Made by a program: the position numbers and the translations under genes. This document shows, piece after piece, positions 22,390 to 27,882 of a DNA stretch of 64,000 bases. The stretch lies in NCBI RefSeq assembly GCF_001623075.1, contig NZ_LMCF01000016.1, positions 1 through 64,000 of the forward strand, written 5' to 3'. The stretch's first letter is position 1, and every line of letters begins with the position of its first letter. The DNA is from Pseudovibrio sp. Ad37. Lineage in GTDB: Bacteria; Pseudomonadota; Alphaproteobacteria; Rhizobiales; Stappiaceae. Under the pieces are notes generated by a model that was not told where the DNA came from, did no database searches, and saw only the letters and a list, made by a program, of their open reading frames with translations.

Positions 22390-23322
22390 ATGCGTCAGGT
22401 GAATTTACGCAGTGTAGACCTGAACCTCCTCGTCGTTTTGGAGAAGCTGCTGGAAACGCGGCATGTATCTGTTGCTGCCACACAATTGCACATGAGCCAG
22501 CCTGCAGTGAGCCGTGCCTTGCAGCGTCTCCGCGATGCCCTGCAAGATCCCTTGTTGGTGCGCATTGCCGGAGATTATGAGTTGACGGAAAGAGCTATAG
22601 AGATCCAAAGGCTGCTCCCGTCCGCTCTGGCAACTATCAAGGATGTGATCGCTAAACCGGAGTTTGACCCCACAACTGCAGAAGAAACCATTCGTTTCTC
22701 TGGGCCGGAGTTGGAGTTGAATCTGTATGGCCCTCCACTTCTACGACGGATGAAGCGTGAAGCACCTGGCATGAAATTGGAGATGAAGAGCGACATCCGC
22801 AATCAGTTCGAACCGCTGGAAAATGGAAAAGCCCACTTCGTCTTGTCAGGCCAAACCCCAACCACAGCAACAAGCCAGCTTCACTGCTTTTCGCTGGGCC
22901 GCTTCAGCTACGTGTGTTTGATGAGCAGGAACCATCCACTTGCACGCAAGCCCGTCTCATTGGAGGATTACCTCAGTCAGGACCATATCTCGGTCATGAT
23001 CACCGGGGCGGGGCACAGCATAATTGATGAGAAACTGGCAGTGCTGGGCCACAAAAGAAACGTCGCTGTAAAAATCGGCAGTTTCTTCGCCGCCATGCAT
23101 TTCTGTGGCCAATCCGACATGCTCTTTTTGGTGCCCTCCATTTTTGACACCCAAATCTACAACGGCCACAACACCGTTCCCTCTCCAGTGCCCGACTTCC
23201 TCAAGGAACACCACCAGGAATTCTTCCTCTACTGGCACGAACGCTACCACCACGACCCCATGATCAAATGGACCCGCAATCTGATGAAAGAGACCACAAA
23301 GCAATATAGGTCAGGTGAGTGA
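22390..23322 (+). CDS. LysR-family transcriptional regulator (NodD/NahR-like subgroup)
   Basis: 310 residues. The opening VNLRSVDLNLLVVLEKLLETR is typical of the NodD/NahR/LeuO branch, with the helix-turn-helix VSVAATQLHMSQPAVSRALQRLR (residues 28-50) and an effector-binding domain to about 300. Regulators of this branch often answer aromatic compounds. It diverges from the WrbA-like gene, so quinone or phenolic response is a plausible inference. Phenol formed by Tpl could be such a ligand, but no direct link is visible. Confidence 0.88.
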   Translation: MRQVNLRSVDLNLLVVLEKLLETRHVSVAATQLHMSQPAVSRALQRLRDALQDPLLVRIAGDYELTERAIEIQRLLPSALATIKDVIAKPEFDPTTAEETIRFSGPELELNLYGPPLLRRMKREAPGMKLEMKSDIRNQFEPLENGKAHFVLSGQTPTTATSQLHCFSLGRFSYVCLMSRNHPLARKPVSLEDYLSQDHISVMITGAGHSIIDEKLAVLGHKRNVAVKIGSFFAAMHFCGQSDMLFLVPSIFDTQIYNGHNTVPSPVPDFLKEHHQEFFLYWHERYHHDPMIKWTRNLMKETTKQYRSGE

Positions 23323-23388
23323 GGTAAGGTGCCTTGCTGCAACTTTAGCGGCCTGATGAAACATACGAAAAGTGGACAGGCGCTCATA

Positions 23389-23418
23389 TTGACACGGAAC
23401 AACAGGCCACTCTATCGT
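23389..23418 (+). promoter_or_regulatory. Putative sigma-70 promoter of the SDR operon
   Basis: TTGACA (23389-23394) lies 18 bases from TATCGT (23413-23418), about 78 bases before the GTG start. Consensus -35 but weak -10. Confidence 0.4.
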
Positions 23419-23495
23419 TACGAAAATTCCAATAGGCTGCCTGCCTCGATAGATAAGCTGTCAGCGACCTAGCAAATCTGAGAAAGCATCATTTC

Positions 23496-24188
23496 GTGAA
23501 GAAGAATATTCTGATTGTTGGTGGTACGTCTGGCGTGGGCCTTGAGCTTGCAAGGCACTACTTAGAAGAAGGCCATAATGTTGGGCTGACCGGACGTCAA
23601 AATCCTGAACTTGAAGGGACCACCTTTCATAGCCTCTCGATAACGGATGATCCCGTTCAGTTAGCGCAAAATATTGATCGGGTATTGGATGGCTTCAAGA
23701 ATGTTCACACGCTTATCTATGCCGCAGGTTTTCTTCAGCGCGGGCATATTGATGAGCTTGCTGATGCTGAACTCGGGACTATGGTCAATGTCGGCCTGCT
23801 GGCACCTATGATGCTGATACAACGCCTGAAAAGGAGATCAGATCATCCTCTCAAGATTATGCTGATTACCTCAAGTTCGCAATATACGCCTCGTGAGTTG
23901 GAGCCTGCATACTGTGCGACCAAATCTGCACTGGGAATGTTGGGCGCATCGCTCGTGCGCGACAAAGATCTTGGTAAGGTTCTGGTCGTAGCTCCTTCAG
24001 GTATCCAAACTGCATTCTGGGACAATACCGATGAAGATACAGACACGATGCTGTGTCCTTCTTGGGTATCACAACAGATTGTCGAACTCTCCAGTGGCAG
24101 CTTCAAATATAAGTTCGCAAAGATACTGCGAGATCCGGCGCGTGTGGAGATCGTTGAAACTCTGGATAACAATCTGGCGACAATCTAG
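23496..24188 (+). CDS. Short-chain dehydrogenase/reductase
   Basis: 230 residues, classical SDR fold. Nucleotide-binding G-G-T-S-G-V-G at 9-15, A-A-G in the usual NNAG position (about 77-79), a serine cluster TSSSQ (about 126-130) and the catalytic Y-C-A-T-K (about 140-144). The start is GTG with only a weak GAGAAAG site. The substrate is unknown. The next gene begins 34 bases later and is an unusual NDP-kinase-like protein, so the two are likely one operon acting on a nucleotide-linked or nucleoside-type molecule. That link is an inference. Confidence 0.85.
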   Translation: MKKNILIVGGTSGVGLELARHYLEEGHNVGLTGRQNPELEGTTFHSLSITDDPVQLAQNIDRVLDGFKNVHTLIYAAGFLQRGHIDELADAELGTMVNVGLLAPMMLIQRLKRRSDHPLKIMLITSSSQYTPRELEPAYCATKSALGMLGASLVRDKDLGKVLVVAPSGIQTAFWDNTDEDTDTMLCPSWVSQQIVELSSGSFKYKFAKILRDPARVEIVETLDNNLATI

Positions 24189-24222
24189 GCGGTTAGGCAA
24201 CTTGCTAGTGGGAGGAGCCTTG

Positions 24223-25098
24223 ATGGAACACAACATAATCCTCGTTAAGCCAGACTCGTCTAATCAAGAGAGGTTTGTAGAGGCCATCAGTGCTGATCTT
24301 TTGGAGGGCGGATACGAGATTGTTGCAATTAAATATAAGCAGCTGAGCTCTGAGGAATTTGAAGGCAACTTTATCTGTAAGAATCGCCAGCATTTAGCGT
24401 ACATGATCAGTGGCTCAATCGCAGCAATACTTTACCGCGGGCATTCTGCTGTTGGCTTCGGAAGGAACTATAAGTTCCATTTCAGAAAGCAGCACTCAAC
24501 GGATAAGCTCAAAAACATCCTCCATTCGACAGAACCGGGCAATGAATTTGCCGTGCAGTTCGAATTGTTCTTTGCAAACCTAAATATCACCGAGCATCAT
24601 CAGTTTGCTGATCAGGGCGTCTATTTTAGTAGTTTGAACGAGATACAGTCGGGTGAGCTATCGAGACTTGCCAGCTTCAATCTGATTGCGGTTAGTAACG
24701 AAGAGGCGAGTTCGCAGCAGTTCAGGGAAACATGCAGCCTGAGAAATTGCAGGTATGTTGGATACCGCGAACGCATTTATACCAGCACAGAACTGTTGCG
24801 GTATCGAAGGAAAGCAGATTCAAGCGCTAAAGATATGCCTGAAGTGAGGGTCTTGCATTTGCATGACTTACAGGAATATTCGCAACATATCAGACACATG
24901 AAAGAGACGCATAAAATACACGGAGTGGTGTGCTACAAGCCGAAACTCACACTTCTGGAAACGGAAATGCTGCGTACAGCGATACTAGAAAATAATCTCT
25001 GTTGTGTTGGTGGCAGCTTCGGTGAGCAGCCGCCCGGTTCGATCAGAGCATCGCAGGAGTTAGCCGATATGTTTGAAGCCCACTTTGAGCATAACTAG
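24223..25098 (+). CDS. NDP-kinase-like domain protein with uncharacterised C-terminus
   Basis: 291 residues. Residues 3-117 align with nucleoside diphosphate kinase: N-I-I-L-V-K-P-D (Lys9) at the first strand, E-G-G-Y-E-I-V-A-I-K, M-I-S-G-S-I-A-A-I-L-Y-R-G, and N-I-L-H-S-T-E-P, whose His101 falls on the phosphorylated histidine of the NxxH motif, followed by a V-Q-F-E-L-F-F helix. The segment normally holding the loop with GTIRGDF and nucleotide-contact arginine is missing or very short. Residues 120-291 match nothing I know. GGAGGAG precedes ATG 24223. The frame runs upstream, but only as overlap with the SDR gene. Catalysis is doubtful but not excluded. Confidence 0.6.
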   Translation: MEHNIILVKPDSSNQERFVEAISADLLEGGYEIVAIKYKQLSSEEFEGNFICKNRQHLAYMISGSIAAILYRGHSAVGFGRNYKFHFRKQHSTDKLKNILHSTEPGNEFAVQFELFFANLNITEHHQFADQGVYFSSLNEIQSGELSRLASFNLIAVSNEEASSQQFRETCSLRNCRYVGYRERIYTSTELLRYRRKADSSAKDMPEVRVLHLHDLQEYSQHIRHMKETHKIHGVVCYKPKLTLLETEMLRTAILENNLCCVGGSFGEQPPGSIRASQELADMFEAHFEHN

Positions 25099-25119
25099 AA
25101 AATCGGTCTCTCTGCCCAC

Positions 25120-25440
25120 CTACCCATTCGAGACAAACTTCAACCCTACGATTGCGGCAATGAGCATGGCTATGAAGAAGAGGCGGAGGAAGGTGACTGG
25201 TTCTCCAAAGAGGAAGATGCCAAGGATGGCAATGCCGGAGGCGCCGATCCCCGTCCACACGGCATAGGCTGTGCCAAGCGGTATGGACACCATGGCTTTG
25301 GTCAGGAAGTAAAGTGACAGCAAGGCCGTGATGATGAAGGCGATTGTATAGAAAGGCCTGGTAAAGCCGTCAGACAGCTTGAGGCAGACGGCAAAGGTCA
25401 TTTCAAACAGGCCAGCGATGATGAGCTAGATCCATGCCAT
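25120..25440 (-). pseudogene. SMR-family efflux protein gene with TAG at codon 5
   Basis: The frame from ATG 25440 has a good Shine-Dalgarno (GGAGG, eight bases upstream) and would encode a 106-residue four-helix small multidrug resistance protein of the SugE/Gdx or EmrE type: MAWI, then TAG (25428-25426), then LIIAGLFE with the essential membrane Glu, and IPLGTAYAVWTGIGA further on. The stop replaces the Tyr usual at this place. Restart at ATG 25401 would lose the first helix and the Glu, so the product would be inactive. The rest of the gene is intact, suggesting recent loss, suppression or a sequence error. Confidence 0.85.
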
Positions 25441-25588
25441 TCAGTTGCCTCCAACGCAACGTCTACAGTGTAACCTCTGGTCACCACCAACGGTGCACCA
25501 ATGAGAACACGCGATGAAACAAAAGCTTGATGCCGTTTGAGCGTTCCACTCCAAATTAGGTCACCTACAAGAAACGCGGTTTAAGCCC

Positions 25589-26216
25589 TCAGTGTAAAGG
25601 GCTCTTTCTTTGGGATGGATGATTTTCTCCACCTTCCACCCAGCGGTGCGTCGCCTTTGCAATGCGAGCGCCATAGGCAAAGGCCGTGTCTCTGTCTGAT
25701 TGAGGAGGAGCCACTTCTGGCCCTTCATCCATGTTGGCCTGTGCTGCTGCGCCATAATAGACGCCAAGGCGATTGAGATCTTCGTCGCTGCCAAAGCTGT
25801 AATTATTGCCCGGCGGCATGCCAAGGCTTACCCAGATCATGCCATGCCATGCCATGCTGGGCTGCAAAGGCTGCCATTTGAAGGAAGACGTTGTGCCGGT
25901 CGCCGCTCATGGAACCTGATACGCTGAAACCACCGGCGATCTTGTTGATCCAGCCTTGTTTGTACCAAACGGTTGCAGAGGCATCCATGAAGAATTTGAA
26001 GGGGGCAGCAACACCGCCCATGTAGGTCGGGCTTCCAAAAACGATGGCATCAGCAGCTTCCAGAGCGTCCCAGTCCGTATCCTCATAATCGCTGACAGGC
26101 ACATAAGTGACCGTGGCACCGTTTTCACTGGCACCGCGGGCGACTGCATGTGCCAGTGCCTCGGTATGTCCGTTGGCAGAAAAAAAGGCGATTGCTACCA
26201 GAATGTCTTTTGACAT
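25589..26216 (-). pseudogene. WrbA-like flavodoxin gene frameshifted by a 5-base repeat
   Basis: The paralogue of the gene at 21709-22299. The first frame (from ATG 26216) gives a flavodoxin N-terminus, including GSPTYMGGVAAPFK, up to AAFAAQHGM, then leaves frame and stops at 25803. The second frame carries the rest: GMIWVSLGMPPGNN, SDEDLNRLG and on to 25589. At the junction four tandem CATGC units (plus strand 25838-25857) stand where the intact paralogue has two, a 10-base insertion. Removing two units, or adding one, restores the frame. Function would be FMN-dependent quinone reduction. Confidence 0.85.
25838..25857. repeat. Pentanucleotide tandem repeat CATGC x4
   Basis: Four direct copies inside the flavodoxin gene at the exact point where its frame breaks. 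The intact paralogue (near 21930) has two copies. Candidate slipped-strand mutation site. Confidence 0.8.
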
Positions 26217-26345
26217 GGACCGTTACTCTTCAAGCCTGTCAGAATTCCGGTCTATTTGGGAGCAAACGCCTTTCAGCTACTCTAAGATAGCTCGGGTAGA
26301 TTTAGATGTGCTCGATTAAAATTCTTCACGCACATACCTGTTTAC

Positions 26346-26855
26346 CTAGGATTCCTTATAGGCTCCGCTGGAATAATGCAGCTCATAGGAGTGGCTGTAG
26401 ATTTCCAGAATGTTGCCGAATGGATCTTCCATGTAGATCATGCGGTACGGCTTTTCGCCAGGATAATAATAGCGCGGCTCCTTCATGCGGCGTTTACCGC
26501 CAGCAGCCTCAATCTTGGCGGCCAGACCTTCCACATCCGGGTCCTGAACACAGTAATGGAAGATACCGGTCTTCCAATATTCGAAGTTATTTTCCGGGGT
26601 CTCGTTCTGCGCAAACTCAAAAAGCTCCACACCAATGCCATCACTGGTGGAAAGATGAGCAATCTTGAAGCTCTTCCAGCCTTTACCAAACACGTCAGTA
26701 CACATTTCACCAATCGGACTATCATCTTCAACAATCTCGCTTGGTTTCATGATGATGTACCAGCCCATCACATCACGATAGAACTTCACTGCGGCTTCAA
26801 CATCCGGAACGGAAAGACCGATGTGAGAGAAACGTCTTGGATAAGGTGCGGACAT
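26346..26855 (-). CDS. VOC superfamily protein (glyoxalase/dioxygenase)
   Basis: 169 residues, one VOC domain of extradiol-dioxygenase type: RFSHIGLSVPDVEAAVKFY at the start gives the first metal His, G-I-F-H-Y-C-V-Q-D-P-D the second His, and D-P-F-G-N-I-L-E-I-Y-S-H the Glu. The spacing suits a metal enzyme. The substrate is unknown; lactoylglutathione is only one possibility. GAGG precedes ATG 26855. The gene diverges from a LysR regulator, the third enzyme/LysR pair in this window. Confidence 0.8.
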   Translation of the reverse strand: MSAPYPRRFSHIGLSVPDVEAAVKFYRDVMGWYIIMKPSEIVEDDSPIGEMCTDVFGKGWKSFKIAHLSTSDGIGVELFEFAQNETPENNFEYWKTGIFHYCVQDPDVEGLAAKIEAAGGKRRMKEPRYYYPGEKPYRMIYMEDPFGNILEIYSHSYELHYSSGAYKES

Positions 26856-26985
26856 AACAGACCTCGCTACGCTAAACATTACAGGCGGAATGCCTTGGAT
26901 ACGTTGGATGTAGCAACTCTGTGAGAAAACCAAAAATTGTCATTTATTAGTTTTATGATAATTTAATGTTATGTATGCTTGGGCC

Positions 26986-27882
26986 ATGTTGAATTCTCAG
27001 TGGCTTAAGACCTTCGTTAAACTAACTGAAACTGGTCATTTCACCCAGACAGCCAATCAACTTGGTATGACACAGCCGGGTGTAAGCCAGCACCTGAAAA
27101 AGCTGGAGCAGCAAATCGGTGCGCCGCTCATCACAAAAATCGGCAAGGGCTTTGAGTTGACGCGAGAAGGGGAGCTTCTGCTGGGCTTTGCATTGAAAGC
27201 AGAGAGGCAGGAAGCAGACCTTCGCGCCGCAATACAGCAAGACGATCCCAATACTGGTGAAGTCCGTATTGCGTGTTCCGGGTCCATGGCGCTCTACCTC
27301 TATCCCAACCTTCTCAAGCACCAGAGCCTTCATCCCGGTTTACTGCTGAAAGTCGAAGTGGCTCCCAACCATCGCAGCCTCCAACTGTTGCAAAACAATG
27401 AGGTCGATCTCTGCATCGTTACTCAGCAGACTGTTCAGACCTCGCTTGTGCAACACCACATCGGCGATGAACCGCTTTGCCTTGTGGTGCCAGCCGATTT
27501 CGAGGGGAACCCATCGGTCTTCGCGGACCTGGAGTCGCTGGGCTTCATCGATCATCCGGATGGACTACACTATGCAGAGCGCCTGCTCACGCCAAATTTC
27601 CCGGAGATAAGTGCTGTTTCTGCTGACCTTAGAACAACCGGTTACATCAACCAGCTCAGTCAGATCCTTGTACCTGTCGCACAAGGACTGGGATACACGG
27701 TTTTGCCGGAAACCGCCGTTCGCAGTTTTGAGGCACAAGCGAACATCAGAATTGTGGAGCTGAAAGAACCCGTCAGTGACCCGCTCTATCTGACGGCGAA
27801 AAAACATCGCACTTTGGCAGCGCGTTATGACTGGTTCAGCAAGAAAATCTCAGAACTATGCGGTCAAATGAGCAGCAGTTAG
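26986..27882 (+). CDS. LysR-family transcriptional regulator
   Basis: 298 residues. Helix-turn-helix at about 15-37 (FTQTANQLGMTQPGVSQHLKKLE), effector domain from about 85. The start could be ATG 26971, but LysR N-termini normally begin a few residues before the first helix, as from 26986. It faces the VOC gene with a 130-base shared AT-rich region, the expected operator location. The inducer is unknown. Confidence 0.9.
   Translation: MLNSQWLKTFVKLTETGHFTQTANQLGMTQPGVSQHLKKLEQQIGAPLITKIGKGFELTREGELLLGFALKAERQEADLRAAIQQDDPNTGEVRIACSGSMALYLYPNLLKHQSLHPGLLLKVEVAPNHRSLQLLQNNEVDLCIVTQQTVQTSLVQHHIGDEPLCLVVPADFEGNPSVFADLESLGFIDHPDGLHYAERLLTPNFPEISAVSADLRTTGYINQLSQILVPVAQGLGYTVLPETAVRSFEAQANIRIVELKEPVSDPLYLTAKKHRTLAARYDWFSKKISELCGQMSSS

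Follow-up and report, generated by a model that had tools for sequence, protein, structure and literature searches.

Nucleoside diphosphate kinases (NDKs) are highly conserved housekeeping enzymes, in which Phe60 and Arg58 hold the base and the phosphate. According to excerpts of one article, the active-site pocket of the Mycobacterium tuberculosis NDK is made up of K, Y, R, N, H, S and E, and the shorter Kpn loops of viral NDKs are part of the explanation for their altered nucleotide preference (PMC7554756). Eight metal ligands of RNase AM are described in an extract of a second article (PMC9410882), and the excerpted text of a third presents the PHP domain of E. coli PolIII as one that has lost metal ligands, is likely inactive and is kept for structure (PMC3666897).

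Here we describe a locus in which these themes meet. The window, i.e. the whole stretch of 64,000 nucleotides that was analysed, belongs to contig NZ_LMCF01000016.1 of Pseudovibrio sp. Ad37, whose genome is 5.9 Mb, and encodes an SDR followed by an NDK-like protein of 291 residues. Rather than a new kind of system, the latter is an accessory variant of an unusual sort. We tentatively favour, at somewhat less than even confidence, its being an NDK-derived phosphohistidine phosphotransferase with an accessory role, whose nucleotide-binding site is damaged and whose second module is PHP-like and probably free of metal.

Comparison with described proteins brings out both likeness and departure. 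The NDK of mimivirus (2b8q) has in common with the NDK-like domain its fold, the phosphohistidine and the active-site Lys, Arg and Asn, and the Kpn loop is shortened in both. The Pseudovibrio protein differs from it by an extra deletion of 5 residues at the RPFF segment, by replacements of Y by F, S by T and E by Q, by deletion of the T94 counterpart and by the addition of a C-terminal domain of 174 residues. The PHP domains of RNase AM, BAD_1165 and PolIII alpha resemble this additional domain in predicted fold (Z 9.4 to 5.8), but profile comparison shows no sequence similarity to those of RNase AM or PolIII, and most metal ligands of RNase AM are not recognisable in the alignments tried. The SDR is like a classical SDR such as 3guy in profile match, in its Rossmann and YxxxK motifs and in its length of 230 residues, and no remarkable difference was seen.

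The gene pair first proposed from the letters alone is real, with an SDR open reading frame at 23496-24188, a gap of 34 bases and a 291-residue frame at 24223-25098, both on the plus strand. The features of the locus are as follows.

22390-23322, plus strand: upstream LysR-family regulator, given as context (Pfam LysR_substrate 85.2 bits, HTH_1 57.2 bits)
23389-23418, plus strand: promoter-like site 5' of the SDR gene, TTGACA, spacer of 18, TATCGT (sequence scan)
23496-24188, plus strand: short classical SDR, 230 residues, GTG start (adh_short 68.1 bits)
24210-24217, plus strand: Shine-Dalgarno-like GGGAGGAG 5' of the NDK-like gene (sequence reading)
24223-24573, plus strand: NDK-like N-terminal domain, residues 1-117 (PF00334 32 bits; VIA-align Z 14.7; site table)
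24484-24486, plus strand: Arg88 codon, counterpart of the GTIRGDF Arg (HMMER alignments to PDB chains; MAFFT table, 5/5 orthologues)
24523-24525, plus strand: His101 codon, counterpart of the phosphohistidine (matches the catalytic His in an alignment with 9 canonical NDKs)
24574-25095, plus strand: C-terminal domain, residues 118-291, of probably PHP-like predicted fold and without a sequence family (AlphaFold and structure comparison)

The single promoter-like site found between 23300 and 25200 compares with a mean of 2.7 in shuffled sequences and is no evidence beyond chance. A longer reading of the NDK-like frame, from 24031, would overlap the SDR gene, and the start at 24223 is preferred because the MEHN found there is common to all five orthologues. 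The SDR passes the adh_short cut-off (68.1 against 26.6 bits) and carries GGTSGVG, AAG and YCATK, which we take to have their usual meaning in this family; 3guy (65.8 bits) is the only solved chain to match it with an E of 1e-8 or better. On one side the NDK-like gene is flanked by patatin, WrbA-like and LysR genes, and on the other by genes for an SMR-type transporter, a WrbA-like protein, a glyoxalase, a LysR regulator and a hydrolase, the name WrbA being our own assignment for both neighbours. The second WrbA-like gene (25561-26216, minus strand) is split in the window into overlapping frames of 137 and 92 residues; a copy of 205-207 residues is found in genomes G015, G009 and G002, and the copy in G005 departs as well, at a different place.

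Family, fold and active site of the NDK-like domain

The assignment of the N-terminal part to the NDK fold, made in the sequence-only reading, is borne out by both profile and model. The PF00334 match covers residues 2-119 and scores 32 bits (cut-off 27, E 1.3e-7), and four orthologues also lie above the cut-off of 27, with 42.5, 31.7, 31.6 and 29.3 bits. In the AlphaFold model of the whole protein, built on 5 related sequences (pLDDT 75.6, pTM 0.57), the predicted N-terminal domain aligns to 4and by VIA-align with Z 14.7, an rmsd of 2.1 and 117 aligned residues, and the best PDB match of this model in Foldseek is the mimivirus NDK. The NCBIfam enzyme (equivalog) models for NDK remain far below their cut-off (best 26.9 against 155 bits), so that annotation as a nucleoside-diphosphate kinase enzyme would be unwarranted. 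Nor is this the ordinary NDK of the bacterium, since a canonical NDK is encoded elsewhere in the same genome (178.7 bits); one is also present in 15/15 other Pseudovibrio genomes.

Active-site residues were tabulated from a MAFFT alignment of the five NDK-like proteins with 9 canonical NDKs, namely the copy of the same genome and 8 other loci matched by the N-terminal profile in class genomes. K9, R81, R88, N98 and H101 are kept in all five, and we take them to correspond to Lys12, Arg88, Arg105, Asn115 and His118 of human NDK. Conservative replacements, identical in 5/5, are found at three positions, Y to F (F50), S to T (T103) and E to Q (Q112), presumably human Tyr52, Ser120 and Glu129. The counterparts of R58 and F60 (which, like T94, we number after what we take to be the human enzyme) are not kept, and that of T94 is deleted. 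Relative to the seven pocket residues of the M. tuberculosis NDK, four are identical (K, R, N and H) and three are conservatively replaced.

HMMER alignments to PDB chains (three displayed), together with MAFFT, place Lys9 and His101 at the canonical NDK positions, as had been recognised. The same alignments correct the further claim that the nucleotide-contact Arg had disappeared with its loop: R88 is the aligned counterpart of the TIR arginine in GTIRGDF, in 5/5 orthologues, which rules out the loss of that Arg. What remains of the missing loop is that a part of the Kpn loop, roughly 10 residues between R81 and R88, is indeed gone, and the argument that loss of the Arg precludes phosphoryl transfer is unsupported, because that Arg is kept. 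A second deletion, unnoticed in the sequence-only reading, removes 5 residues at the RPFF segment (MAFFT), and 5/5 orthologues carry both the 10- and the 5-residue deletion instead of a complete Kpn loop and RPFF segment. Among the five orthologues 110/291 positions are invariant, a count lowered towards the end by the G005 row, which stops early; the longest invariant run comprises 12 residues (98-109) around His101, and the next longest only 5. Given that both deletions and the catalytic residues are common to the five orthologues, and that the 12-residue run surrounds His101, these features are not chance.

A domain of this kind could be an active NDK with relaxed nucleotide selectivity that serves as a back-up maker of NTPs and in which the C-terminal domain is merely a stabilising extension. 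Viral NDKs with short Kpn loops have an altered nucleotide affinity, according to excerpts of the article cited above (PMC7554756), and the top Foldseek match is the mimivirus enzyme. However, a canonical NDK accompanies the protein in its own genome and is found throughout the other Pseudovibrio genomes, the RPFF segment is lost as well as part of the Kpn loop, and the enzyme models of NCBIfam are missed by a wide margin; we consider a back-up NDK improbable.

The C-terminal domain

Residues 118-291 had been said to match no recognised family, and this holds: searches of Pfam, NCBIfam, PHROGs, PADLOC and PDB sequences gave no significant match. The best of the weak matches were to HisB in NCBIfam (E 0.032) and FANCM-MHF_bd in Pfam (E 0.088), each in 1/5 orthologues, to phrog_10509 (E 0.21) and to PDB sequences (E 0.28), PADLOC giving none; Pfam contained no PHP match for the window protein or its orthologues.

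Modelled alone from 5 sequences, the domain gave an AlphaFold prediction with pLDDT 79.1 and pTM 0.76, for which the top Foldseek match was RNase AM (E 4.7e-3, with none at 0.001). In a structural second look, 997 Foldseek-ranked chains were aligned to this model. The best nine matches are all PHP proteins (Z 9.4-5.8), a family whose fold is a distorted beta/alpha barrel, comprising two entries of BAD_1165 (3o0f, 3e0f), two of RNase AM (7ug9, 9etk), four of PolIII alpha and one Bacteroides PHP protein, whereas the tenth is unrelated (Z 3.7). Values of Z 7-8 are typical for models without a clear match, and the PHP-like reading is drawn from the agreement of nine entries rather than from the height of Z. 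On this predicted model, we find it fairly probable that the domain is PHP-like in fold.

Profile comparison lends no support to PHP homology. With hhalign, the domain scored 12.0 against 31 RNase AM rows and 18.3 against 31 PolIII PHP rows, compared with 9.9-18.6 for 13 unrelated or reversed controls. Removal of the RNase AM insertion gave 12.25, a score that 198/300 column shuffles equalled or surpassed (263/300 in global mode). The RNase AM set consisted of 31 sequences, i.e. 30 loci and the E. coli protein, and 11 further matches without a locus were left out. In the first segment, three forced alignments to RNase AM put D130 on D20 (kept) and H125 on H15, with H13 on a non-His residue and H45 on E160, a position occupied by E in four orthologues and by I in the fifth; where the later metal ligands fall varies with the alignment mode, and such forced alignments are no evidence of homology.

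The main rival of phosphotransfer as the function of the protein is a ligand-binding pseudoenzyme, a sensor with both domains degenerate that would bind a nucleotide or phosphorylated metabolite without chemistry and regulate the SDR or another partner. It would account for the two deletions in the substrate pocket, the counterparts of R58, F60 and T94 that are not kept, the change of E129 to Q and a PHP-like domain in which, on the alignments tried, most metal ligands lack a recognisable counterpart, and the E. coli PolIII PHP domain, as presented in the excerpted source, offers a precedent (PMC3666897). Yet the invariance of K9, R88, N98 and H101 in 5/5 orthologues and the position of H101 within the best-conserved stretch exceed the apparent needs of binding alone; we hold the pseudoenzyme to be possible, if somewhat unlikely.

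Distribution, genomic context and selection

The NDK-like protein is present in 5/16 Pseudovibrio genomes and in 0/71 other genomes of the family (E 1e-5); the named orthologues, of 58-81% identity, belong to P. ascidiaceicola, P. japonicus and P. denitrificans. With the C-terminal profile, a sample of 397 genomes of the order returned the own genome only, and a sample of 398 genomes of the phylum returned the own genome and one other match (E 0.004), rejected as chance, whose frame looks by eye like a membrane-fusion (HlyD-like) protein. The N-terminal profile, applied to 385 genomes of the class, yielded 8 other matches, all NDKs of ordinary length (24.9-28.5 bits). An NDK match was found in 235/249 sampled genomes of the phylum and two such matches in 4/249, the own genome included; the other three contain, respectively, two ordinary-looking copies, a contig-end fragment and a different divergent NDK-like protein (G667). 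Plasmids, phages and viral contigs gave no match. When genome contigs were scanned with the single protein, no relative appeared; a second scan, with the alignment, found three Pseudovibrio contigs. The samples overlap and the profiles were built from five close sequences, so that distant relatives may have escaped detection.

The divergent protein of G667, another alphaproteobacterium, has 301 residues (L111:5714-6619, minus strand; NDK 40.1 bits) and resembles the window protein in being a second divergent NDK domain inside a longer protein, but has no meaningful BLASTP match to it (E 0.22). It differs also in its surroundings, among aminotransferase, formyltransferase and thymidylate-kinase-like genes, with no SDR seen in the five neighbours scanned. 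The tight row at L111:2577-7683 (class-III aminotransferase, formyltransferase, thymidylate-kinase-like protein, NDK-like protein and a 355-residue protein without a Pfam match) has the look of a cluster for small-molecule biosynthesis that employs an NDK-like protein.

With presence set at E 1e-5 for the NDK-like protein and E 1e-20 for the SDR, both genes occur in 4 of the 16 Pseudovibrio genomes, the NDK-like gene alone in 1, the SDR gene alone in 1 and neither in 10 (one-sided Fisher test calculated by hand, about 0.013 with no correction for relatedness of the genomes). In the four genomes with both, the genes are 34, 34, 8 and 13 bases apart. Co-occurrence of the two genes elsewhere had been named as a check in the sequence-only reading, and it is seen only in part: G010 has the SDR without the NDK-like gene, adjoining a ceramidase-like gene, and G014 has the NDK-like gene without the SDR, which leaves an obligate unit unsupported. 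The SDR gene upstream is probably co-transcribed with the NDK-like gene yet separable from it, and its product perhaps acts in the same small-molecule pathway. The two-gene machine first suggested, in which the NDK-like domain passes a nucleotide-like ligand to the SDR or scaffolds it, would suit the close spacing and the joint presence in 4/16 genomes with joint absence from 10, but not the two genomes in which one gene stands alone, and this computational analysis found no biochemical link between the proteins. We regard such a machine as improbable, and the handing of a ligand to the SDR in particular is a guess.

The slot that the NDK-like gene occupies varies between genomes, and the gene itself is accessory. 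Gene order in G015 and G009 equals that of the window, the LysR gene adjoining the SDR gene in both; in G005 a distance of about 3.5 kb separates the LysR gene from the SDR gene, and in G014 the patatin, NDK-like and SMR genes are adjacent and the SDR gene is absent. In G002, a close relative of the window genome, the slot (L106:5255-8711) holds an AraC-type regulator and a 676-residue open reading frame that is repeat-rich, has no Pfam match and looks autotransporter-like by eye. Patatin is followed by SMR in G006 and LysR by SMR in G004, and no SDR or NDK-like gene was seen near the patatin gene of G003 and G007.

For dN/dS, 10 pairs of NDK-like genes were compared, of which 6 lacked a finite dS and three more exceeded 2, leaving the window-G015 pair alone in use. 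For this pair the ratio is 0.16 over the whole gene, 0.11 in the N-terminal part and 0.20 in the C-terminal part, next to ratios of 0.21 (SDR), 0.13 (LysR gene) and 0.04 (hydrolase). These values fit a protein that selection maintains, though with less stringency than in the case of the hydrolase. Synonymous divergence is 0.63 in the NDK-like gene against 0.075 in the SDR gene. Comparison of window 22390-27882 with L008 (G015) shows a step in DNA identity near 24200-24300, from 94-99% on the left to 80-93% on the right, and this step near the start of the NDK-like gene likely reflects recombination at the locus; read in this way, the contrast of 0.63 with 0.075 is not evidence for rapid evolution of the NDK-like gene alone. 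In the P. denitrificans draft (G005) a TGA interrupts the NDK-like gene (L011:8635-7769) in frame after about residue 272, and the match to a glycosyltransferase nearby (L011:4204-2944) is split into two pieces that lie in different frames; the draft may contain sequencing errors.

Proposed function and meaning

Phosphotransfer from His101 is proposed as follows. Residues of the chemistry are kept and base-gripping parts are lost, which points to a phosphotransferase with another or a broader substrate. His101 would still accept a phosphoryl group, the loss of the RPFF segment and of part of the Kpn loop would leave a pocket without the nucleobase grip of an NDK, and the protein might use a phosphorylated compound of another kind or be less selective for the base. 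With most of its metal ligands presumably lost, the C-terminal fold would be a binding or stabilising module, not a phosphatase. The NDK match, the phosphohistidine with Lys, Arg and Asn kept in five orthologues and the two common deletions are seen directly in the sequences. Support comes from the passing of the PF00334 cut-off, the four identical and three conservatively replaced pocket residues, each uniform in 5/5, the 12-residue run at His101, the dN/dS of 0.16 for the window-G015 pair, the mimivirus NDK as top Foldseek match and the nine PHP entries. Against it stand AlphaFold models from 5 related sequences, C-terminal profile scores within those of controls and shuffles, a dN/dS above that of the hydrolase (though near that of the SDR) and the in-frame TGA of G005. 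Turnover could moreover be absent, given a deleted T94 counterpart, a position of R58 that is not kept and Q in place of E129. A bolder proposal, which we find rather improbable, is a new two-domain phosphotransfer protein whose NDK-derived phosphohistidine core has given up the nucleobase clamp, which uses a metal-free PHP-like domain for ligand binding and which transfers a phosphoryl group to or from a non-nucleotide compound that the adjoining SDR consumes or makes.

A fusion of NDK with a PHP-like domain was not found in the literature on Pseudovibrio NDK or on NDK with a PHP domain, among the matches listed. The protein comes so far from five species only, all of the marine bacterium Pseudovibrio, and the predicted PHP-like fold of its fusion partner is invisible to sequence search. 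A natural NDK variant that has kept the phosphohistidine machinery and lost two parts of the nucleotide site would reveal other uses of this chemistry.
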